Shown here: one piece after another, positions 11,075 to 20,337 of the stretch
Layout: each line of letters begins with the position of its first letter
Position numbering within the stretch: position 1 is the first letter of the stretch
Virus record (IMG/VR): IMGVR_UViG_3300005580_000020
Span: 1 to 25,007 of that record
Source of the DNA: a virus
Length of the DNA stretch: 25,007 nt
Reading direction: 5' to 3' (one strand)
Made by a program: the position numbers and the translations under genes
Notes under the pieces: model-generated
Told to the model about the DNA's origin: nothing
Seen by the model: only the letters and a program-made list of their open reading frames with translations
Database searches by the model: none

Positions 11075-12529
11075 ATGATTTTTGAGATTGAAGCCACACG
11101 ATTTGAAGATGGTGACAAAAAGGTTTTTCACTATGATAACATGACCAATGTGTTGAAAGATACTGATGGTAACGTGTTTGAGTATCCAGAGGACCAACGT
11201 ACAGACAATTTTCTAAAACCACACAAACCATTTGACAAAAACCGACCACTGAAAAAATCAAAATTAATTAGTTGGTTGAAAATTCAAATGGGGTTAAGTT
11301 GTAACTATTCGTGTGATTATTGTTCACAGAAGTTTGTTGAACGAGCACCAGAAACCTCCAAGAAAGACATTGATGTTTTCATGAAAAAATTGGAAAACTT
11401 ACAGTTTGATGAGGATGTTGGACTAAAGATTGAATTTTGGGGTGGTGAGCCATTAGTTTATTGGAAAACATTAAAACCATTGGCGGAAGCCATGGCAGAA
11501 AAGTTTGATAGTTGGAAAACAAAACCAGTTTTTAGTATTATCACTAATGGTTCTATTCTAACTGATGAAATAATTGATTGGTTGATGATGATGGATTTTT
11601 CTGTATCCATTTCACATGATGGACCTGGACAGTTTGTACGTGGACCTGATCCATTTGATGATCCAGAACAAAAAGAACGAATTCTTGGATTCTATAGAAT
11701 GATGACAAGACTCGGAAAAAACATAAGTTTTAATTCTATGTTGAATGCTAAAAACCAAAGTAGAAAAGAAATTCGTGATTGGTTTATAAACTTAACTGGT
11801 GATAAGAATGTTTCGTTGGGTGAAGGTTCTTTAGTTGATGCTTATGATGAAGAAGGAATTTCAAACTCATTAAACACCAAACAAGAACATTTTCAATTTA
11901 GACAAAAGTCCTTTGGTGAATTATACAGTGAAGGACCAACTATTGGATTCGGTGGCCAATTAGCTAAAGTTGAAGGATTAATTCATTCAATTTTAAACCA
12001 TGATGAATCCAAATATTTGGGACAAAAATGTGGCATGGATGATGAACACACAATATCAGTGGATTTGCGTGGTAATGTTATGACATGTCAGAATGTTAGT
12101 TCACTGGAAATTTCGAAAAATGATGAACCACATCATGGCGGTACATTGGATGATTATTCAAATGTTTCATTGACCTCAGTTACACATTGGTCCAATCGTA
12201 AGGAATGTCCAGAATGTCCAGTTTTACATATTTGTAAAGGTGCCTGTATGTTCTTGGATAAAAAATTCTGGGACATTTCCTGTGCCAATGCATATTCTGA
12301 TAATGTGGCATTGTTTTCTGCAGCATTCACTATGATAACAAATGGTTATATACCAACTTTAATTAAGAGTGACACATTACCACTTGATAGACAAGATGTT
12401 TTTGGTACAATTTTTGACCATCCAGAAGAAGAAAAAATGAAAAAAGTCATACCAATCAAGGTGGTTAAAGAGATTATTGGTACCGTTAATGATATTGAAG
12501 TGTATGGTAAATCCTACGTGAAATCATAA
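11075..12529 (+). CDS. Radical SAM enzyme with SPASM domain (peptide-modifying type)
   Basis: The 484-residue protein has the radical SAM cluster motif C-x3-C-x2-C at Cys76/80/83, which binds the 4Fe-4S cluster that cleaves S-adenosylmethionine, and the GGEP motif at 123-126. Its C-terminal part matches the SPASM pattern exactly: Cys319-x13-Gly333-x4-Cys338, then Cys378-x2-Cys381-x5-Cys387-x3-Cys391-x11-Cys403, seven ligands for two auxiliary 4Fe-4S clusters. SPASM enzymes (PqqE, AlbA, anSME and the maturases of SCIFF/ranthipeptides) usually act on peptides or proteins. Residues 1-60 may be a substrate-recognition extension. The next gene encodes an unusual Asn/Cys-rich protein, the most obvious substrate candidate. 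PqqA is encoded 7 kb away, but PqqD/PqqE partners are not evident. Confidence 0.88.
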   Translation: MIFEIEATRFEDGDKKVFHYDNMTNVLKDTDGNVFEYPEDQRTDNFLKPHKPFDKNRPLKKSKLISWLKIQMGLSCNYSCDYCSQKFVERAPETSKKDIDVFMKKLENLQFDEDVGLKIEFWGGEPLVYWKTLKPLAEAMAEKFDSWKTKPVFSIITNGSILTDEIIDWLMMMDFSVSISHDGPGQFVRGPDPFDDPEQKERILGFYRMMTRLGKNISFNSMLNAKNQSRKEIRDWFINLTGDKNVSLGEGSLVDAYDEEGISNSLNTKQEHFQFRQKSFGELYSEGPTIGFGGQLAKVEGLIHSILNHDESKYLGQKCGMDDEHTISVDLRGNVMTCQNVSSLEISKNDEPHHGGTLDDYSNVSLTSVTHWSNRKECPECPVLHICKGACMFLDKKFWDISCANAYSDNVALFSAAFTMITNGYIPTLIKSDTLPLDRQDVFGTIFDHPEEEKMKKVIPIKVVKEIIGTVNDIEVYGKSYVKS

Positions 12530-12563: not shown

Positions 12564-13550
12564 ATGGCAACACCAGATACAAACAGTTCAATTGCGGTTT
12601 CTCAAATTAATACCGAAGTGGGTAGAGCTGCGGCCAAACCTTCCACCGACTTAAATTTCTTAAATGGTTATTTAAAACCTGCTGGTACATCGCCAGCAAT
12701 TGCTGGGGGTACAGTAACAGCGCCTAGTCCACAAAGGCAGGCCAATCCATTGGATTTGGGTGTATATCGTGGCGGTTTAACATACTTTCAAAGAAACAAT
12801 GCCGGTAATTGCAATAATACAAATATTACAAACTGCAACTGTAATAGTAGCAAAACTCAGTGTGGACAATGCCAGAGTGCGGGTGGCACAGCTCGTCAAT
12901 GTAATGCCACAAACAATTGTACAGCTATTAATTGTGCAAATTGTGATACACAGAAATGGTTACAGACAGGTAATTGTCAAGCGGCGACCACACCAGTATA
13001 TAATTGCACCAGTAACGCAAACTGTTTTACTTTCAATTGTAATTGTTCAAAGATTATTTGTACTAAATTGTTTGACCTTGGTCTAATGAAGAAAAACATC
13101 TTTGAAGCCGACCAAGCATTTGGTGAAAAACTTATCGAAACTCATCCAGATATCTATAATGGTTATCGTGCATGGGCAGAAATTGTTGTTGATTGGATGG
13201 GCGGCAAAGGTCCTAAGATAATGCCTTGGATGTCCGATGAAGAATTTAGTGGTGATGTAAAAAGATGGTCTATTACATGGGCTTACGATATTGCAACACC
13301 TTGGGCTGAAGAAATGGCCTACATGATGGGTGAAAAACAAACAGGAAGCATTACAGGTAAACTGTTGTTTGCATTTGGTGCACCAATCTGTAAAGTTGTT
13401 GGTGTATGGCAACGTTGGTTTGGACCAAGTAAAAAAGAACCTGGCTTTATTAAAGGGTCAATCCTTGTTGCAATTTTCGTCATGTTCAAATTGGTTGTAG
13501 AATTTGGTAGGTTTATTGAGAGACTTATTCCAAAGAAAAAGGCCACATAA
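12564..13550 (+). CDS. Asn/Cys-rich phage protein, possible radical SAM substrate
   Basis: The 328-residue protein has three parts. Residues 1-77 are Pro/Ala/Gly/Thr-rich. Residues 78-166 hold 15 cysteines and 20 asparagines in 89 positions. Eleven cysteines are directly preceded by Asn and three by Gln, so 14 of 15 follow an amide side chain (for example NCNCN, NCNNTN, NCANC). Residues 170-328 look like a folded helical domain rich in Trp (MPWMSDEEFSGDVKRWSITW) with a possible membrane helix (about 297-315) and a basic end (RLIPKKKAT). No signal peptide is seen. It sits 34 bases after a radical SAM-SPASM gene and before several oxygenase-like genes. It may be a virion protein whose Cys/Asn segment is cross-linked or otherwise modified, or a metal-binding or disulphide-rich segment. 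The role is inferred. Confidence 0.75.
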   Translation: MATPDTNSSIAVSQINTEVGRAAAKPSTDLNFLNGYLKPAGTSPAIAGGTVTAPSPQRQANPLDLGVYRGGLTYFQRNNAGNCNNTNITNCNCNSSKTQCGQCQSAGGTARQCNATNNCTAINCANCDTQKWLQTGNCQAATTPVYNCTSNANCFTFNCNCSKIICTKLFDLGLMKKNIFEADQAFGEKLIETHPDIYNGYRAWAEIVVDWMGGKGPKIMPWMSDEEFSGDVKRWSITWAYDIATPWAEEMAYMMGEKQTGSITGKLLFAFGAPICKVVGVWQRWFGPSKKEPGFIKGSILVAIFVMFKLVVEFGRFIERLIPKKKAT

Positions 13551-14192: not shown

Positions 14193-14888
14193 ATGACAAC
14201 AAAAGAAGATAGAGATAGATACCATTGGTATCAAAATGCACAGAATATGTTTTGGCAAAGTCCAATATGGGAAGTGCAAACAAAATTTGATGAAGAATTC
14301 AATGAAGTATTATTGGATGAAATCTATGGTATAGGCAAAGATATCGTATTGGGTAAAGACAAAGACCCTAATAATAGTATATGGGATTACAGTAGACCCA
14401 ACTTAGATATACTAAAACAAGAAATCACAGACATAGTAACCAAGAAAATTACACAGAATATTCCTCAACTGAGGATGTTAAACATTCGTGGTTGTGAACA
14501 CTTCATGGGTTGGATTAATGTACGTGAACCAGGCGAACGCCTAGAGGTGCATGGCCACACCGAATCTGCTATTGCAGCAACATACTATCTGAAAGCAAAA
14601 GATGGTTGCGGTGACCTTGTGTGTTTTGATTCATCACATTCAATTGATTGGGAAAACAATAAACTTAGTGGCAGTCCGTTTATGCGTGAACGTAGATATA
14701 AACCAGTTGAGGGTCGTTTGATTTTCTTCCCGTCATATGTATTGCATGGTGTAGATGAAAACAAGTCTGATGACCTACGTATATCATTATCCACAGACCT
14801 CAGAAAAGTGGTAGAAAAAAATGCATCAAATACCGTTATTTTGAAATCTTGGGCAGGTAGAATGGCTAAGATTAGAGAATGGAAGTAA
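14193..14888 (+). CDS. 2-oxoglutarate/Fe(II)-dependent oxygenase-like protein
   Basis: The 231-residue protein shows the double-stranded beta-helix signature of 2OG oxygenases. An H-x-E pair (His122, Glu124, in EVHGHTESAIAATYYL) would bind iron with distal His185 (FFPSYVLHGV), and Arg196 (DDLRISLS) would bind 2-oxoglutarate. Order and spacing match the TIGR02466-type oxygenases often found in T4-like cyanophages. The substrate is unknown; relatives hydroxylate proteins, nucleobases or small molecules. No clear Shine-Dalgarno precedes the ATG. Four more H-x-D...H...R proteins lie nearby, three of them immediately downstream. Confidence 0.8.
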   Translation: MTTKEDRDRYHWYQNAQNMFWQSPIWEVQTKFDEEFNEVLLDEIYGIGKDIVLGKDKDPNNSIWDYSRPNLDILKQEITDIVTKKITQNIPQLRMLNIRGCEHFMGWINVREPGERLEVHGHTESAIAATYYLKAKDGCGDLVCFDSSHSIDWENNKLSGSPFMRERRYKPVEGRLIFFPSYVLHGVDENKSDDLRISLSTDLRKVVEKNASNTVILKSWAGRMAKIREWK

Positions 14889-15418
14889 TGTTTACAAAAC
14901 TATCAACAACATTTCAGAAACCAATATATGCAATTACCGATACACTAAAATCTTTCAAACATGATGGTAAAGGTATTGCTTATAGAAAGATATGGTCACC
15001 AGAATCTGAGAATTTTTATGGTATAATACCAGAAAGATACCATAAAGATTTTCACTTGACAGTTATGACAATTAATTGTATAATCCCTCCACATACAGAC
15101 ACAGAAATTATTACCTCTATAAATTTTTATCTCAAAACAGATAATTGTACAACTACATTTTATAGGCCAAAGGTTGAAAATCCAAGAACTGTTCAAGTAG
15201 AAAATCAAACCAACGGCCATATATTTTTTGAAGAAGATTTAATTGAGATTGATAGTTTTGTGGCCAAAGATAATGAAATATGGTTACTTGATGTAAGTCA
15301 AATACATGGTGTTAAAGGTCAAATTAATTTGAGAACAGCAATCACACTCGGAACTTTTGTTCATAAGTATGAGAATGTGATTGAAATGTTAAAGGAAACC
15401 GGTAATGTCATTTGTTAA
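14888..15418 (+). CDS. 2OG-oxygenase-like protein, paralogue A, 176 aa
   Basis: The ATG at 14888 overlaps the previous stop (TAATG); an in-frame ATG at 14879 is also possible. Candidate iron ligands are His69-x-Asp71 (IIPPHTDTEIITSINFYL) and His140 (LLDVSQIHGV), with Arg149 for 2-oxoglutarate, placed on strands as in a cupin or double-stranded beta-helix fold. It is shorter than most 2OG oxygenases. The next gene is a clear paralogue that shares the IWSPE/IWTPE and PERY-x-KDF blocks and the ETGN end. A perfect-consensus promoter-like sequence lies inside it (15056-15084). Enzymatic activity is inferred from motifs only. Confidence 0.65.
   Translation: MFTKLSTTFQKPIYAITDTLKSFKHDGKGIAYRKIWSPESENFYGIIPERYHKDFHLTVMTINCIIPPHTDTEIITSINFYLKTDNCTTTFYRPKVENPRTVQVENQTNGHIFFEEDLIEIDSFVAKDNEIWLLDVSQIHGVKGQINLRTAITLGTFVHKYENVIEMLKETGNVIC
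15056..15084 (+). promoter_or_regulatory. Intragenic perfect sigma-70 promoter sequence
   Basis: TTGACA (15056-15061), exactly 17 bases, and TATAAT (15079-15084), inside the coding sequence of paralogue A. A 12-of-12 consensus match with optimal spacing is unlikely by chance even in AT-rich DNA. If active, it would transcribe the downstream paralogue, the hydroxylase-like gene and the second radical SAM gene. Confidence 0.5.
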
Positions 15419-16055
15419 ATTGAAACAACTTTATGAACAACCAATATTTGCACCAGTAAATGGATTAGAATCGTTTGCTGGGTTTCATGGATTGGGTGTT
15501 CAACATAATAGAATCTGGACACCAGAACCAGAAAAAATATTTAAGGTTATTCCCGAAAGATATAACAAAGATTTTAAACTTACACGTATGTCTATCAATA
15601 GTGTATTGATACCTCATGTAGATAATGATTTAATAACAACAATTAATTTCTATTTTCAGCCAGAAGATTACAGAACCATTTTTTATAAAGCAAAACCAAA
15701 TACACGTAGTTGGAAAACTGAAGAAAAACAATTACAAAAATTAGATGAAATGAAGGAGTCGGATATTCCTTTTGAAGAACTTAAAGTATCTCTGAAAGAA
15801 TACATAAAAGATAAGAAAAATATGCCAACAGTTGAAGAAATCTCATATGTTGATGCAGTGTATAGTTATGAAGATGTATATGAAACAGGTAGTTTTATAG
15901 CCAATGCGAATGAAGCATATCTATTGGATGTCAGAGAAATACACAATGTTGAACCGTTGAATGGCCCAAAATTGAGAAAGGCTTTTGCTTTGAGAACAAC
16001 TAAGTATGATTATAGAGAAGTATATGAAATGCTAGAAGAAACCGGTAATCTATAA
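15405..16055 (+). CDS. 2OG-oxygenase-like protein, paralogue B, 216 aa
   Basis: The gene overlaps paralogue A by 14 bases. It shares the blocks IWTPEPEKIFKVIPERYNKD, LIPHVDNDLITTINFYF and LLDVREIHNV. Putative metal ligands are His71-x-Asp73 and His180, with Arg191. It differs from A by a roughly 40-residue charged insertion at about residues 95-145 (KPNTRSWKTEEKQLQKLDEM onward), which may be a lid or protein-contact element. The retained H-x-D...H...R set suggests that both copies keep activity and that the substrates differ. No specific reaction is known. Confidence 0.65.
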   Translation: MSFVKLKQLYEQPIFAPVNGLESFAGFHGLGVQHNRIWTPEPEKIFKVIPERYNKDFKLTRMSINSVLIPHVDNDLITTINFYFQPEDYRTIFYKAKPNTRSWKTEEKQLQKLDEMKESDIPFEELKVSLKEYIKDKKNMPTVEEISYVDAVYSYEDVYETGSFIANANEAYLLDVREIHNVEPLNGPKLRKAFALRTTKYDYREVYEMLEETGNL

Positions 16056-16065
16056 AGGAAATAAA

Positions 16066-16839
16066 ATGTTTTTTGAAAAATTGAATTATACAGTAGACAT
16101 TGAGAAATTGAAACATGAGGTGCGAGAAAGTGTTTTCACTTTAGGAGACAAAGTTGTCCAAGGCGAAGAATACGAAACACCAAAGTATCACGGTTTTGGT
16201 GGATGGAGTTTGATGAGTAGACAGGCCACTTGGACAGATGGATGGGAAGCCATACAATTAGAAACTGGTGATTCACTGGAATCCTTTTTACCAACACAAG
16301 AATTGATTTTTAAAGCTTACAAACATTTCAATATATCACAGCAATTGGAACATGACAAACCAACAGAAGCTTACGTTGGTGAAATTAAAAAAGTGATTGA
16401 TGAAATACGTGATATAGGATTCCATCCAACCAGAGCAAGAGTTGCTTGTTTAAAAGCCGGTTCAAAAAGTTTAGTACACAAAGATGCTGATGAAACGGAA
16501 TATATGGCACGTATTCATATACCTTTATGGACAAATAAAAAATGTGTGCATATTTGTGAGGGTAAAAATTTACATATGCCAGCTGATGGGTCAGTTTGGA
16601 TGATTTGGACAAACAGATGGCACCAAATTAGAAATGACTCTAATGAAGATAGATATCATATCATTATGGATGCATATGATACTAAAAAAATCACAAACAA
16701 CTTTAAATATGAAGGTGATTTTCTTATGTTTGAAGATTGGGTCCGTGGCCAAAGAGAACAAATTGATTCTGTGGAATTGACACAGGAAGATATTGATTTC
16801 TTTGAGGCTATTAGAAGTAGATACTTAACTAAAAAATGA
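16066..16839 (+). CDS. Aspartyl/asparaginyl beta-hydroxylase-like oxygenase
   Basis: An AAAGGA site precedes the ATG. The 257-residue protein resembles the Asp/Asn beta-hydroxylase branch of 2OG oxygenases. A C-terminal jelly roll holds His138-x-Asp140 (KSLVHKDADE), the strand ARIHIPLW (148-155) with Arg149, distal His186 (MIWTNRWHQIRN) and Arg196. The family hydroxylates Asp or Asn side chains in proteins, and some members act on free or carrier-bound amino acids. Given an Asn-rich protein encoded in the same cluster, an Asn-hydroxylating role is attractive but unproven. It overlaps the second radical SAM gene by ATGA, so the two are probably co-translated. Confidence 0.75.
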   Translation: MFFEKLNYTVDIEKLKHEVRESVFTLGDKVVQGEEYETPKYHGFGGWSLMSRQATWTDGWEAIQLETGDSLESFLPTQELIFKAYKHFNISQQLEHDKPTEAYVGEIKKVIDEIRDIGFHPTRARVACLKAGSKSLVHKDADETEYMARIHIPLWTNKKCVHICEGKNLHMPADGSVWMIWTNRWHQIRNDSNEDRYHIIMDAYDTKKITNNFKYEGDFLMFEDWVRGQREQIDSVELTQEDIDFFEAIRSRYLTKK

Positions 16840-18377
16840 GAAAAATTGATGGTATAATTTTTACTGGTACGCAGAACAGTACAACAAATAATAGACCAGC
16901 TGGAGCGGCTAGATTAAGAACATTTCTTGGCCAACACAATTATGATATTGAGGTTGTAGATTTTTTTTATGAGTTTACATCTGATGAACTTTGTGCTGCT
17001 TGTGATAACTTTATAGATGAAACAACCTTGTTTGTTGGTGTAAGTATCACTTTCATTTACGAAAATGATAAAGTCAACAAACTATTTAATCATATTAAGA
17101 CAAAATATCCTAAGGTAAAAACGGTGATTGGTGGATCAGAGGGTTCAGTTGAAGCCTTAGATGGAACATTGATTGATAGATTTATATGGGGTTATTCTGA
17201 ACAGGCTGTTCTACATTATTTGAAATTCTTACAAAGAAAAAGACTTGATGATTTGAAATGGGAACCTTATCATGGTACATATGCTATTAATGCAGAATCA
17301 TCATATAAAAATGATGACACTGATTTGACTATTAAATGGTTAGAATCTGATTTAATTAAAACAAATTTTCTACCAATAGAAATAAGTAGAGGTTGTATTT
17401 TTAAATGTAAATTTTGCCAATTCCCTTTATTGGGTAAGAAAAAAAGTGATTACATTAGGCATGTTGATAACCTAACTGATGAGATTCGCAGAAATTATGA
17501 AATGTTTGGAGTAACAAATTATTGGTTCAATGATGATACACTCAATGATAATATTGTTAAACTGGAATATATTGCTGAAGCTATTGAAAAGAGTGGAGTG
17601 AAAATAACATATAGTGCATTTTTACGAGCAGACTTAATGGCCAGATTTCCCGAAACTATTTCAATGTTAGCGGACACAGGTTTAGCTTCAGCTGTTTTTG
17701 GTATAGAAACGTTACACCCCTTGGCCAAAAAAATTGTTGGAAAAGGACAAGATTCTGAAAGACAGTTTGATGCCATCAGACAACTAAAAAAACTTGCTCC
17801 CATATGGACACAAACTGGAATGATTGTTGGATTGCCTGAAGAACCATTGGCCAGTATTTTCGAATCCCAGAAAACACTCCTTAAAATGAATGAAAATTTT
17901 GAAGTGTTAAACCAATGGTTTTGGTTTTCTTTAACACTCAGAAAAAAAGGAATGACACGTTTAAGTGAATTTGAGAAAGAACATGAAAAATACGGTTATT
18001 CTGAAATGGATGTAACTGAATTAAAAAAAGGATATATGGATTTAAATAATCTTATAATACATTTTGGAAATGAAAAGACGATGTATTGGAAAAATAAATA
18101 CACCAATTTTTTTCAAGCAAATTCCATTGCTGAGATTTTGAACAAGGAAGTTGAAAGATTTAGATTGGAACGTGGTATGAGATACACTGACCTACCAATA
18201 GGTGAACACAATAACACATGGGGACAAATTGCACTTCTGCCACATGAACTCATAGGTTTAGGATTTACACCAAAAGAAATTGTGGATGGAACAATCGACA
18301 AAAAAACGTTATTTGGAAAAATAAAACAATCAAAAAATGATATACTAAATTACAAGAAACTGAAGTTAGGATTATAA
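16836..18377 (+). CDS. Radical SAM protein with cobalamin-binding-like N-terminus
   Basis: The 513-residue protein begins with a Rossmann-like region (residues 1-130) laid out like a B12-binding domain, ending in VKTVIGGSEGS and a LIDRFIWGYSEQAVL segment. The usual D-x-H-x2-G cobalamin motif is not visible, so B12 may bind base-off or not at all. The radical SAM motif is intact: Cys187-x3-Cys191-x2-Cys194 in SRGCIFKCKFCQF. A TIM-barrel half with NDDTLNDN and FGIETLHP follows. Relatives include methyltransferases, methylthiotransferases and ring-forming enzymes on peptides or small molecules. The substrate is unknown. The gene overlaps both neighbours (ATGA upstream, TAATG downstream). Confidence 0.82.
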   Translation: MRKIDGIIFTGTQNSTTNNRPAGAARLRTFLGQHNYDIEVVDFFYEFTSDELCAACDNFIDETTLFVGVSITFIYENDKVNKLFNHIKTKYPKVKTVIGGSEGSVEALDGTLIDRFIWGYSEQAVLHYLKFLQRKRLDDLKWEPYHGTYAINAESSYKNDDTDLTIKWLESDLIKTNFLPIEISRGCIFKCKFCQFPLLGKKKSDYIRHVDNLTDEIRRNYEMFGVTNYWFNDDTLNDNIVKLEYIAEAIEKSGVKITYSAFLRADLMARFPETISMLADTGLASAVFGIETLHPLAKKIVGKGQDSERQFDAIRQLKKLAPIWTQTGMIVGLPEEPLASIFESQKTLLKMNENFEVLNQWFWFSLTLRKKGMTRLSEFEKEHEKYGYSEMDVTELKKGYMDLNNLIIHFGNEKTMYWKNKYTNFFQANSIAEILNKEVERFRLERGMRYTDLPIGEHNNTWGQIALLPHELIGLGFTPKEIVDGTIDKKTLFGKIKQSKNDILNYKKLKLGL

Positions 18378-19036
18378 TGTTCATTTATTGCCCACCAAAA
18401 GAGATTCCAAAAATCGAATCTCAAACTTTTCCAGACGGAAAAAGATATTATGTCACACCTGATGGTAAAAAATTACCATCGGTGACCACAGTGGTGGGTG
18501 CTCAGAAAAAAGAGGCCATCATGGCATGGCGCCGCCGAGTTGGTGAGGAGGTTGCAAACAAAATCTCCAAACATGCCACGTCCCGTGGTACCAATATGCA
18601 CACCATGTGTGAATACTATCTGAACAATGAAACAAAACCACCAGGCACAGTTATGCCTGATGCCAAAGAGATGTTCATATCAATCAAACCATATCTAAAC
18701 AAAATCAATAACATACACTACCAAGAGGTCGGATTATGGTCCGCACAACTAGGATTGGCAGGCCGTGTTGATTGTATTGGTGAGTATGAAGGTAAGTTAT
18801 CAGTCATTGATTTTAAAACATCAAAAAAGATTAAAAAACGTGAAGATATTTTGGATTATTTCTGGCAATGTACTGCATATGCATTGATGTATGAAGAATT
18901 AGTTGGTACACCTATTGATGATTTGATTATCATTATGGCCGTGGACAATGAATCACCAATGATTTTCCAAGAAAAGACACAAGACCACATTGAAGGCCTG
19001 GTTAAAGCAATTGATTATTACCATAAAAACAGTTGA
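18377..19036 (+). CDS. PD-(D/E)XK exonuclease (RecB/MGME1-like)
   Basis: The 219-residue protein starts at an ATG overlapping the previous stop. It has the nuclease core of the PD-(D/E)XK superfamily: Glu118 in YQEVGLWS, Asp132 in GLAGRVDCIG, and the Asp145-x-Lys147 pair in VIDFKTSKK, followed by the helix DYFWQCTAYALMYEEL with the Q-x3-Y of RecB-like enzymes. The N-terminal PSVTTVVGAQKKEAIMAWRR is typical of the phage and mitochondrial (MGME1) exonuclease branch. Probable role in degradation or processing of DNA during phage replication or recombination. Its TGA overlaps the -35 box of the tmRNA promoter. Confidence 0.82.
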   Translation: MFIYCPPKEIPKIESQTFPDGKRYYVTPDGKKLPSVTTVVGAQKKEAIMAWRRRVGEEVANKISKHATSRGTNMHTMCEYYLNNETKPPGTVMPDAKEMFISIKPYLNKINNIHYQEVGLWSAQLGLAGRVDCIGEYEGKLSVIDFKTSKKIKKREDILDYFWQCTAYALMYEELVGTPIDDLIIIMAVDNESPMIFQEKTQDHIEGLVKAIDYYHKNS

Positions 19037-19061
19037 CAGACTAAATAATTTCATGTATAAT
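19033..19061 (+). promoter_or_regulatory. Perfect sigma-70 promoter of the tmRNA-pqqA unit, with late-like box in the spacer
   Basis: TTGACA (19033-19038), 17 bases, TATAAT (19056-19061). Transcription would start near 19067, at the 5' end of the tmRNA acceptor piece. The spacer contains CTAAATAA (19041-19048), resembling the late-promoter core of T4-like phages, so early and late polymerase forms could both use this region. Confidence 0.88.
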
Positions 19062-19066
19062 GTGAA

Positions 19067-19133
19067 GTTATGGTTGTATGAAGCAACTAGAAATGTGTTC
19101 TGGACGGGGGTGCGAATCCCCCCAGGTCCACCA
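19067..19133 (+). ncRNA. ssrA: Two-piece (permuted) tmRNA, acceptor piece
   Basis: This short RNA carries the 3' half of tmRNA's tRNA-like domain and lies upstream of the tag-coding half. The T arm is GGGGG (19106-19110), loop TGCGAAT, CCCCC (19118-19122). The acceptor strand CAGGTCC (19123-19129) is followed by discriminator A and a genomically encoded CCA (19131-19133). CAGGTCC pairs with GGGCCTG at 19286-19292 (one G-U). ATGTGTTCTG (19093-19102) can pair with CAGGGCAAAT (19304-19313) as helix P2. The start is inferred from the promoter. The loop has G where tRNAs and tmRNAs normally carry U55. The piece is alanine-acceptor type as expected, but the D-loop/acceptor G-U identity pair is seen only as the single G-U noted. 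Confidence 0.88.
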
Positions 19134-19155
19134 AATGTTTTTTAAGGATTAAATA

Positions 19156-19284
19156 ATGTATAAAATAAATTTTAGTTTAGATGAATCTCCGTTATCTTTT
19201 TTTAAAATTTTTAAGACCAAACTTGAGGCTAAAAATTTTATTGAAGAATTGGGGTATAGATTTATTTCCTTAAAGACCATTTGA
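19156..19284 (+). CDS. 42-codon ORF in the spacer between the tmRNA halves
   Basis: The ATG at 19156 has a good AAGGA ribosome-binding site at 19144-19148 with 7 bases of spacing. The TGA (19282-19284) lies one base before the first base of the tmRNA coding piece (19286). The product is a 42-residue basic, Phe-rich peptide. It opens MYKINFSLDESPLSFFKIFK, and residues 24-33 (EAKNFIEELG) look like a helix seen in small phage proteins. It has no membrane segment or signal peptide. Because the spacer of a permuted tmRNA is cut out of the precursor, the same transcript would have to serve as mRNA before or after RNA processing. No homologue recognised. Confidence 0.6.
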   Translation: MYKINFSLDESPLSFFKIFKTKLEAKNFIEELGYRFISLKTI

Positions 19285-19285
19285 C

Positions 19286-19510
19286 GGGCCTGCATAGTTT
19301 CGACAGGGCAAATAGTATAGAAGTGGACAGCTCATCAGAGAAGATGTTAAAACTAAAACAAACGTAAATGCAAACGATAGCTCTTATGAGTACGCATTAG
19401 CAGCCTAAACACTGCTTAGGGTTTTTGGTAGTTTATCCTCGTAACAGAATTAAACTACTACATATTCATGATTATCTCTACCTAAGAAATAGTGATATCA
19501 CCATATATAA
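19286..19510 (+). ncRNA. ssrA: Two-piece (permuted) tmRNA, coding piece with tag reading frame
   Basis: The piece starts with the 5' acceptor strand GGGCCTG (19286-19292) and the D-loop-like TTTCGACAGG that tmRNAs share. The tag frame starts at the GCA resume codon (19370) after GTAAAT and encodes ANDSSYEYALAA before TAA (19406-19408), a typical degradation tag with the ALAA end read by ClpXP. The stop lies in hairpin P5 (CCTAA...TTAGG, 19404-19420). Further stems such as GTAGTTTA/TAAACTAC downstream fit the pseudoknot region. The RNA rescues stalled ribosomes with SmpB, for which no gene is seen here. The 3' end is not defined by sequence; 19510 is approximate. Confidence 0.88.
19370..19408 (+). 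other. tmRNA proteolysis-tag reading frame
   Basis: GCA (resume codon) through TAA encodes the 12-residue tag ANDSSYEYALAA. The AND start and ALAA end match bacterial tmRNA tags. The middle (SSYEY) is unlike the ENYALAA of E. coli or the longer alphaproteobacterial tags that I recall. Confidence 0.88.
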
Positions 19511-19514
19511 AGCA

Positions 19515-19535
19515 GTTGCAACATTTTGTTGTAAC
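19515..19535 (+). other. RNA hairpin between tmRNA and pqqA
   Basis: GTTGCAAC (19515-19522) and GTTGTAAC (19528-19535) form an 8-pair stem (one G-U) with a 5-base loop. It ends 5 bases before the pqqA ribosome-binding site AAGGAG (19541-19546). It may mark or protect the 3' end of the tmRNA coding piece, or set the 5' end of the pqqA message. It has no U-run and is not a terminator. Confidence 0.5.
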
Positions 19536-19552
19536 ACATTAAGGAGTATTTT

Positions 19553-19627
19553 ATGAAGTGGACTACACCAGCAGCAAGCGACATGCGTTTCGGTTTCGAA
19601 ATCACAATGTATATCGCTAATCGTTAA
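19553..19627 (+). CDS. pqqA: PqqA, precursor peptide of pyrroloquinoline quinone
   Basis: This 24-codon gene has a strong AAGGAG site at 19541-19546. The peptide begins MKWTTPAASDMR and ends FGFEITMYIANR. It has the invariant Glu16-x3-Tyr20 pair, which PqqE cross-links and which becomes the carbon and nitrogen skeleton of PQQ, within the conserved R-x-G-F/L-E-x-T-x-Y-x-x-R context of PqqA. PQQ is the cofactor of periplasmic methanol and glucose dehydrogenases. PqqB, PqqC, PqqD and PqqE are not in the window, so the host must provide them. It is the last gene of the tmRNA transcript and is followed at once by a terminator. Its codons (TTC, ATC, AGC, CGT) look less AT-rich than the neighbouring genes, consistent with acquisition from a host. 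Confidence 0.88.
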   Translation: MKWTTPAASDMRFGFEITMYIANR

Positions 19628-19634
19628 TCAAACC

Positions 19635-19667
19635 GGTGGGTTGTATACAGCCCACCCTTCTTTTTAT
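19635..19667 (+). terminator. Intrinsic terminator after pqqA
   Basis: GGTGGGTTGT (19635-19644) pairs with ACAGCCCACC (19647-19656), with one G-U and a tiny loop, and is followed by a T-rich run (19657-19668). It closes the tmRNA-pqqA unit. The next ATG (19669) begins immediately after the T-run. Confidence 0.85.
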
Positions 19668-19668
19668 T

Positions 19669-20337
19669 ATGAAACAAACAATTTGGTCAAGAGGTGAGAT
19701 TTCCATAGCAGATGAGTTAATGGAATTGGCACCTAAATTAACACAAGAATTTTTAGAGTATCACAAAGATTTTGATACAACCTTTAGTGGTGGCATTTCC
19801 TATGCCGCATCCAATCCAGAAGCAATTTTGGATGAACATGAAAAAGATGTATGGAAAGTAGAAGGTTTACGGTACTCTTTGCCGGAGAAAAACATAGAAC
19901 AAAATATGTTTTTACAACCAAAAACAAGGATGATTTTTCCAACGGCCTCATCATTAACACAAAAATATATTGCACATGTTGGTTGCAGTGGTTACAGTGT
20001 ATTAGATGCCGCAGGAATTATTAAACCTCATGTGGATATTGAGAATAGTTCACGTAAGACAGTAAGAATTCATATACCATTAATCATACCAGAAGGTGAT
20101 ATTGCTCTTGAGGTTGGTGGTATAAAACAGGATTGGTCGAACTTATTTGCATTTGATAATGCTGAATTGCATAGTGCATATAATAATACTAATAAAAGAA
20201 GGCTGATTTATATTTTAGATATATCGAGGTCATTTGTAGTTTCTAATTGGATAAATAATTATATGGGTTCGGTGGGGCCCATTCAAAAAACCACCGCCAC
20301 ACTTACACATCACAGGAGAAAACTATGTCAAACATGA
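19669..20337 (+). CDS. Aspartyl/asparaginyl hydroxylase-like 2OG oxygenase
   Basis: The ATG at 19669 gives 222 residues; an in-frame GTG at 19636 would lie in the terminator stem. Ligand candidates are His121-x-Asp123 (IIKPHVDIENS), Arg133 in TVRIHIPLI, distal His168 (FDNAELHSAYN) and Arg178. This is the order of the Asp/Asn beta-hydroxylase branch, as in the 16066 product. No Shine-Dalgarno or promoter fits between the terminator and the ATG, so expression would need terminator read-through or leaderless initiation. The last 13 bases overlap the next gene. Substrate unknown. Confidence 0.75.
   Translation: MKQTIWSRGEISIADELMELAPKLTQEFLEYHKDFDTTFSGGISYAASNPEAILDEHEKDVWKVEGLRYSLPEKNIEQNMFLQPKTRMIFPTASSLTQKYIAHVGCSGYSVLDAAGIIKPHVDIENSSRKTVRIHIPLIIPEGDIALEVGGIKQDWSNLFAFDNAELHSAYNNTNKRRLIYILDISRSFVVSNWINNYMGSVGPIQKTTATLTHHRRKLCQT

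Follow-up and report, generated by a model that had tools for sequence, protein, structure and literature searches.

Can a phage encode PqqA, the peptide that is consumed in the synthesis of PQQ, and what would it gain from a single 24-codon gene of that pathway? The question arises from a short open reading frame on a viral genome fragment. The window analysed here is the whole of that stretch, a 25,007-base virus record from IMG/VR. We first consider whether the frame is a true pqqA on a true viral genome, then how widely such genes occur in phages and how they might be controlled, and finally what the peptide may do during infection.

The window gene and its surroundings

Positions 19553-19627 on the plus strand of the window hold 24 codons that encode MKWTTPAASDMRFGFEITMYIANR. 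The first-pass annotation had named this frame pqqA, and the peptide scores far above the curated cut-offs of both PqqA models: 39.8 bits against 21.1 bits for Pfam PF08042 (E 4e-10) and 39.9 bits against 20 bits for the NCBIfam equivalog model TIGR02107 (E 3e-10). Both residues of the Glu-x3-Tyr pair that the same annotation had pointed out are in place (E16 and Y20). With 24 codons, its own start and a ribosome-binding site, the frame falls within the 23-29 residues expected of a PqqA gene. The Shine-Dalgarno sequence AGGAG (19542-19546, plus strand) lies 7 nt ahead of the ATG and is present in nearly all homologues too. Downstream of the gene is an intrinsic terminator (19635-19665, plus strand), composed of a stem-loop with a 9-bp stem (19635-19656, -16 kcal/mol) and a T-rich tail; the ribosome-binding site and terminator proposed at first pass are thus both present. 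The same gene occurs on a second contig (L434), which is 99.99% identical to the window over 10.6 kb. Since hundreds of homologues show conservation at the protein level, the frame is not a chance one, and its identification from sequence as a genuine PqqA precursor peptide gene is well supported.

The record is classed as viral and phage-type genes surround pqqA, including those for PhoH, an exonuclease (phrog_298) and an ssDNA-binding protein (phrog_224). Because of these neighbours, and because complete genomes of isolated phages carry pqqA as well, the window gene is indeed phage-borne and does not sit in misclassed host DNA. Genes of the 2OG-Fe oxygenase and Asp/Arg-hydroxylase type (at 14193, 16066 and 19666) cluster within 14193-20304 of the window, a region that also encodes a B12-binding radical SAM protein (16836-18377) akin to members of the PhpK family.

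Upstream of pqqA and on the same strand is a permuted, two-piece tmRNA gene (19041-19499, ARAGORN) with the tag (AN)DSSYEYALAA, which is also found by Rfam (RF04321 at 19072-19408, 114.9 bits against 47). A sigma70-type promoter, TTGACA-17-TATAAT, stands before the tmRNA gene (19033-19061, plus strand); it agrees with the consensus at 12 of 12 positions and is a consensus match only. This promoter is a possible source of read-through into pqqA. The order tmRNA-pqqA, on the same strand and with a gap of 47-80 nt, is kept in 22 of the 120 window-type loci among the matches listed, with 16 different peptide-tag combinations among the 22. Judging from a -10-like box, TATAAA (19506-19511, plus strand), that is conserved among related leaders, pqqA probably has a putative promoter of its own as well. 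Immediately 5' of the ribosome-binding site follows a leader hairpin, GTTGCAAC-ATTTT-GTTGTAAC (19515-19535, plus strand), whose stem is common in related leaders. Given this -10-like box and hairpin, pqqA is probably more than the end of the tmRNA transcript, and mere read-through is weakened as an explanation. Of the initial proposal that the gene ends a tmRNA transcript, the linkage stands, with the amendment that an independent promoter is likely too.

Distribution and conservation of pqqA in phages

IMG/VR was searched with degenerate DNA patterns for PqqA. The degenerate PqqA pattern gave at least 120 matches, and all those listed are PqqA frames of 23-25 residues; a ribosome-binding site is evident in front of almost all of them. 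A window-type pattern (..D[ML]RFGFEITMYIA.R) likewise gave at least 120 matches, on contigs of up to 364 kb, and an alpha-type pattern gave 29 contigs only. About 275 distinct IMG/VR loci with pqqA were analysed, a lower bound (at least 275). Viral contigs L032 and L411, of ~356 and ~365 kb, carry pqqA and are of jumbo-phage size. Several viral contigs (L355, L358, L361, L371 and L377) share an alpha-type PqqA whose start, MKNLWNAPEIKEV[SY]VGMEINCYVCAEV, is unusual.

A tblastn search of phage genomes, which the first-pass annotation had proposed as a check, returned 12 matches among 50,697 phage records. Nine of them are Methylophilales/Methylophilaceae phages (P19250A, MEP301, Venkman, MEP401, MEP402 and four Melnitz), one is an environmental podovirus (Manatee Spring phage), and two are contigs deposited as Acinetobacter phage; one of these two was inspected and proved to be bacterial DNA. 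The chromosomal genes on this contig, Acinetobacter phage MD-2021a (CAKLQF020000010.1), include a bacterial pqqBCDE operon and molybdate transport, and it looks like host DNA; we rejected it as a case from outside the methylotrophs. The gene is present in all six complete genomes of methylophages or close relatives examined (P19250A, MEP301, Venkman, MEP401, MEP402 and Melnitz), a count that leaves out MEP431-434, Venkman EXVC038S and phiMB624-A, which are in the taxonomy and not among the matches and may be missing from the collection or be without pqqA. Podophages, siphophages and myophages of a single host group are among its carriers. There was no tblastn match in the Melnitz relatives Mosig and HTVC008M, whose hosts are SAR11, or in the pelagiphage relatives of MEP301, all of which are present in the 50,697-record collection. 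Methylophages match and their pelagiphage relatives do not, so that among isolates pqqA tracks the host and not the phage lineage.

Gene callers do overlook a gene of this size, as had been anticipated: pqqA is unannotated in P19250A, MEP301, Venkman and MEP402, and in Melnitz (14968-15063 of locus L001) the annotated CDS 151 overlies the true pqqA on the opposite (minus) strand. The annotation 'pqqA' is absent from all inspected phage records, nor is the gene named in the publications on Melnitz, MEP301 and MEP401/402. The first-pass statement that no phage pqqA had been described has to be withdrawn, since PqqA was reported together with methanol dehydrogenase in Lake Baikal Methylophilaceae phages in 2020 (PMC7678222). 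More recently, pqqA was listed among virus-encoded genes in sediments (2026, PMC13188868).

Drift at Glu16 and Tyr20 in related phages had been named as a result that would speak against PqqA. None was found: Glu and Tyr are kept in 124 of 124 related viral copies, in a search that left both codons free and fixed the flanks by pattern. One identical peptide is encoded by 26 different DNA sequences, which amounts to saturating synonymous change. The ratio pN/pS is 0.14-0.18 for pattern-selected copies, where the pattern biases it low, 0.39 over ten codons wholly free in the pattern, 0.23 for the C-terminal ones and 0.21 over all 22 codons. By these sequence comparisons, phage pqqA is under purifying selection.

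A putative host-type operator and a phage-specific leader

A 17-bp palindrome, CTMATGAWWWTCATKAG, was found in 141 of 160 host pqqA leaders. Seven of the nine sites with at most one mismatch in three host genomes of 1.3 Mb precede pqqA or pqqB, with PqqB confirmed by TIGR02108 for two, and the palindrome stands before pqqA copies and pqqB at host loci L174, L179, L326, L327, L535 and others. We regard it as a candidate PQQ operator of Methylophilaceae and other Burkholderiales. In one Burkholderiales genome, G193, a NarL-type two-component pair adjoins pqqA.

Phage leaders were scored with an operator PWM trained on the 160 host leaders only, with zero phage sequences. A score of at least 10 is reached by 47% of independent window-type phage pqqA leaders, compared with 1.5% elsewhere in the same loci, and by 49% of independent methylophage-type leaders, compared with 0.2% elsewhere in the same loci; among shuffled sequences the figure is 0.5%. 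The top operator site of the 20-30-kb stretch examined lies 65-239 nt upstream of pqqA in each of the six complete phage genomes. The median distance from operator to start is 91-94 nt in phages and 128-134 nt in hosts, and this shortening suggests that the phage leaders were rebuilt while the site was retained.

The window carries a degenerate copy of the host operator, TTCATGATTATCTCTAC (19465-19481, plus strand), in which the left half and the centre are kept and the right half is changed. It lies 88 nt upstream of the ATG and scores 7.9 bits, a value reached by 1.8% of 220-nt stretches of the window, and we do not treat it as a clean site. At this position in related phages, ATGATTWTC is enriched about 100-fold. 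A general phage promoter motif was considered and rejected as its explanation, as ATGATTWTC occurs 0.004 times per 150 nt elsewhere and in 47 of 119 loci here. Because the host PQQ operator is kept in many related phages, a host regulator probably sets the expression of phage pqqA, to which it would bind through this operator. Cyanophage pstS and similar genes under host PhoBR, as described in PMC10976474 and in work cited there, are comparable in placing an auxiliary gene at a host regulator's site. Phage pqqA differs from them in that the regulon is PQQ synthesis and that both the regulator and its binding are putative.

The leader hairpin has a different distribution. A stem of at least 6 bp is found in 73% of 75 independent window-type leaders, compared with 18% of shuffled ones, and in 50% of 125 methylophage-type leaders (shuffles 18-19%), whereas hosts, at 25% and 15%, are near background. 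A -10 box with at least 5 of 6 matches lies within 22 nt upstream of the hairpin in 45 of 55 loci, compared with 29% in shuffles; the full -35/-10 pair scores modestly above control overall. Hairpins at the 5' end are a known mRNA-stabilising device, and that of phage pqqA may stabilise its mRNA. Phage pqqA therefore resembles its cellular counterparts in Methylophilaceae and Burkholderiales in length, sequence, the Glu-x3-Tyr pair and, in relatives of the window phage, the 17-bp operator. Unlike them, it has no adjacent pqqBCDE, its operator is nearer the start, and it carries a hairpin that is not enriched in hosts.

The role of the peptide during infection

None of the 51 pqqA-bearing viral records has a complete PqqE over the cut-off, and PqqE is over the cut-off in 20 of the 22 putative host genomes. 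This agrees with the initial proposal that the phage supplies the substrate and the host supplies PqqB-E. The PQQ methanol/ethanol dehydrogenase family is over the cut-off in 19 of the 22 genomes. Published Methylophilaceae have 3-12 pqqA copies and typically one of each of the other pqq genes (PMC4109929), and the streamlined 1.3-Mb putative hosts retain three copies; many pqqA genes beside single copies of the others is what one would predict for a pathway limited by its consumed peptide. Work on Gluconobacter that is cited in PMC9851590 reported that cell extract given PqqA peptide alone yielded PQQ. On the evidence from sequence, the phage very probably supplies the consumed PqqA substrate and the host the rest of PQQ synthesis.

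During infection, phage pqqA would be expressed as a short transcript with its own promoter, hairpin, ribosome-binding site and terminator, possibly supplemented by read-through from the tmRNA promoter. Host PqqD would bind the peptide, host PqqE would join Glu16 to Tyr20, and a host protease, PqqB and PqqC would complete PQQ, which would then feed the PQQ-dependent alcohol dehydrogenases of the host. Since PqqA is consumed one-for-one per PQQ while the enzymes are catalytic and persistent, a phage that silences its host would need this piece alone. Family membership, conservation, the lack of a complete PqqE gene, the gene content of the hosts and the operator and leader architecture are seen in the sequences themselves; expression and processing of the peptide, a gain in PQQ, a benefit to the phage and binding of the regulator are inferred. 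Cyanophages with psbA also carry only the short-lived, fast-consumed component of a host system, the D1 protein. Phage pqqA is similar in bringing only the fast-consumed component and dissimilar in that PqqA is a substrate peptide, whereas D1 is a subunit that turns over.

Which dehydrogenases would profit depends on the host. Often a methylophage-type peptide is the same as a Methylophilaceae PqqA at every residue, and that of P19250A equals the peptide of Methylopumilus and others. Outside Methylophilaceae, the PqqA of phage contigs L428/L451 is exactly equal to that of cellular Burkholderiales L507/L510. The exact window peptide is absent from the cellular genomes searched, in which the closest PqqA (88% identity) belongs to Burkholderiales genome G193, outside Methylophilaceae; identity between the window peptide and Methylophilaceae PqqAs is about 65-74%. 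These values make a PQQ producer from the Burkholderiales, but not from Methylophilaceae, the probable host of the window phage. The earlier assignment to a Methylophilaceae host is doubtful, and the link to methanol dehydrogenase is uncertain for this phage. The Burkholderiales genomes with the nearest PqqAs carry several methanol/ethanol-family PQQ alcohol dehydrogenase genes. It is quite possible, even if we lean slightly the other way, that the peptide is a real PqqA whose gain is something other than methanol oxidation: the PQQ might serve different dehydrogenases of a Burkholderiales host that is not a methylotroph, or act as an antioxidant. Yet methanol may be a substrate of these dehydrogenases, and the isolate phages clearly infect methylotrophs.

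A PQQ dehydrogenase is carried by one of the 51 pqqA-bearing viral records. We thus rejected methanol dehydrogenase as a regular companion of phage pqqA and regard the link to methanol oxidation as indirect. On one 72-kb viral contig (L491 in G014, IMGVR_UViG_3300025120_009955), a span of 9 kb holds pqqA and the genes for a PQQ methanol/ethanol dehydrogenase and a SoxYZ-like carrier, and other parts encode ribonucleotide reductase and GroEL; the contig resembles the description of Baikal VP_139/VP_266. Phage population VP_266 (PMC7678222), of T4-like affiliation and with 35% GC, likewise carries a PqqA gene, which was proposed to raise PQQ for methanol dehydrogenase. That report concerned a single gene of a single population, accompanied by a phage methanol dehydrogenase; here phage pqqA is widespread, mostly lacks the dehydrogenase, matches the host's PqqA and comes with a host operator and a leader hairpin.

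An abundant look-alike of the substrate could also titrate PqqD, and the phage peptide might then be a decoy that occupies host PqqD or PqqE and blocks PQQ synthesis or diverts the cell from methanol oxidation. This is highly improbable, because a decoy would be free to lose its reactive side chains, but every copy retains both cross-linked residues with their flanks, and several phage peptides do not differ at all from functional host peptides. The gene is, moreover, carried with the host PQQ operator.

The window also encodes a radical SAM/SPASM protein (11075-12529; phrog_1802, 42% to Achromobacter phage JWF) related to peptide maturases, for which the peptide could be a substrate on the way to a product other than PQQ. 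We consider this almost certainly wrong. The protein lies 8 kb from pqqA and has no PqqE match, on which ground we rejected it as PqqE; its only phage relatives found are Achromobacter phages without a PqqA match; small methylophage genomes have pqqA but no PqqE-like gene; and the adjoining Cys-rich protein is a better substrate candidate. The latter, a Cys/Asn/Thr-rich protein with no family match (12564-13550), possibly forms a peptide-modifying pair with the radical SAM protein, one distinct from PqqE.

Finally, that pqqA fragments from host DNA lie unused near tmRNA or tRNA insertion sites, as the copies adjoining such genes and the many pqqA copies of hosts might suggest, has next to no chance of being correct and is already largely refuted by purifying selection (26 DNA sequences for one peptide; pN/pS), by an operator retained at shortened distance with a phage-specific leader hairpin, and by occurrence in podophages, siphophages and myophages that share a host group.

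Supply of the consumed peptide by the phage is thus the reading we carry forward. We think it likely that several unrelated phage lineages of PQQ makers independently carry pqqA alone, near-universally in methylophages, as a cassette that the retained operator leaves to the host's PQQ regulator and to which a phage-specific leader hairpin has been added. What is new here is pqqA in six named methylophages, its conservation, the host-gene complement, the operator and the leader architecture. This 24-codon gene, annotated in none of the isolated methylophages examined, is probably among their most consistent metabolic genes, and it could mark viral contigs as infecting a PQQ maker. Through the shared operator, host control of phage metabolic genes can be put to the test in culture, for example in OM43 with Melnitz, Venkman and MEP301. 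More broadly, phages would be able to take over a cofactor pathway by providing the consumed peptide alone.
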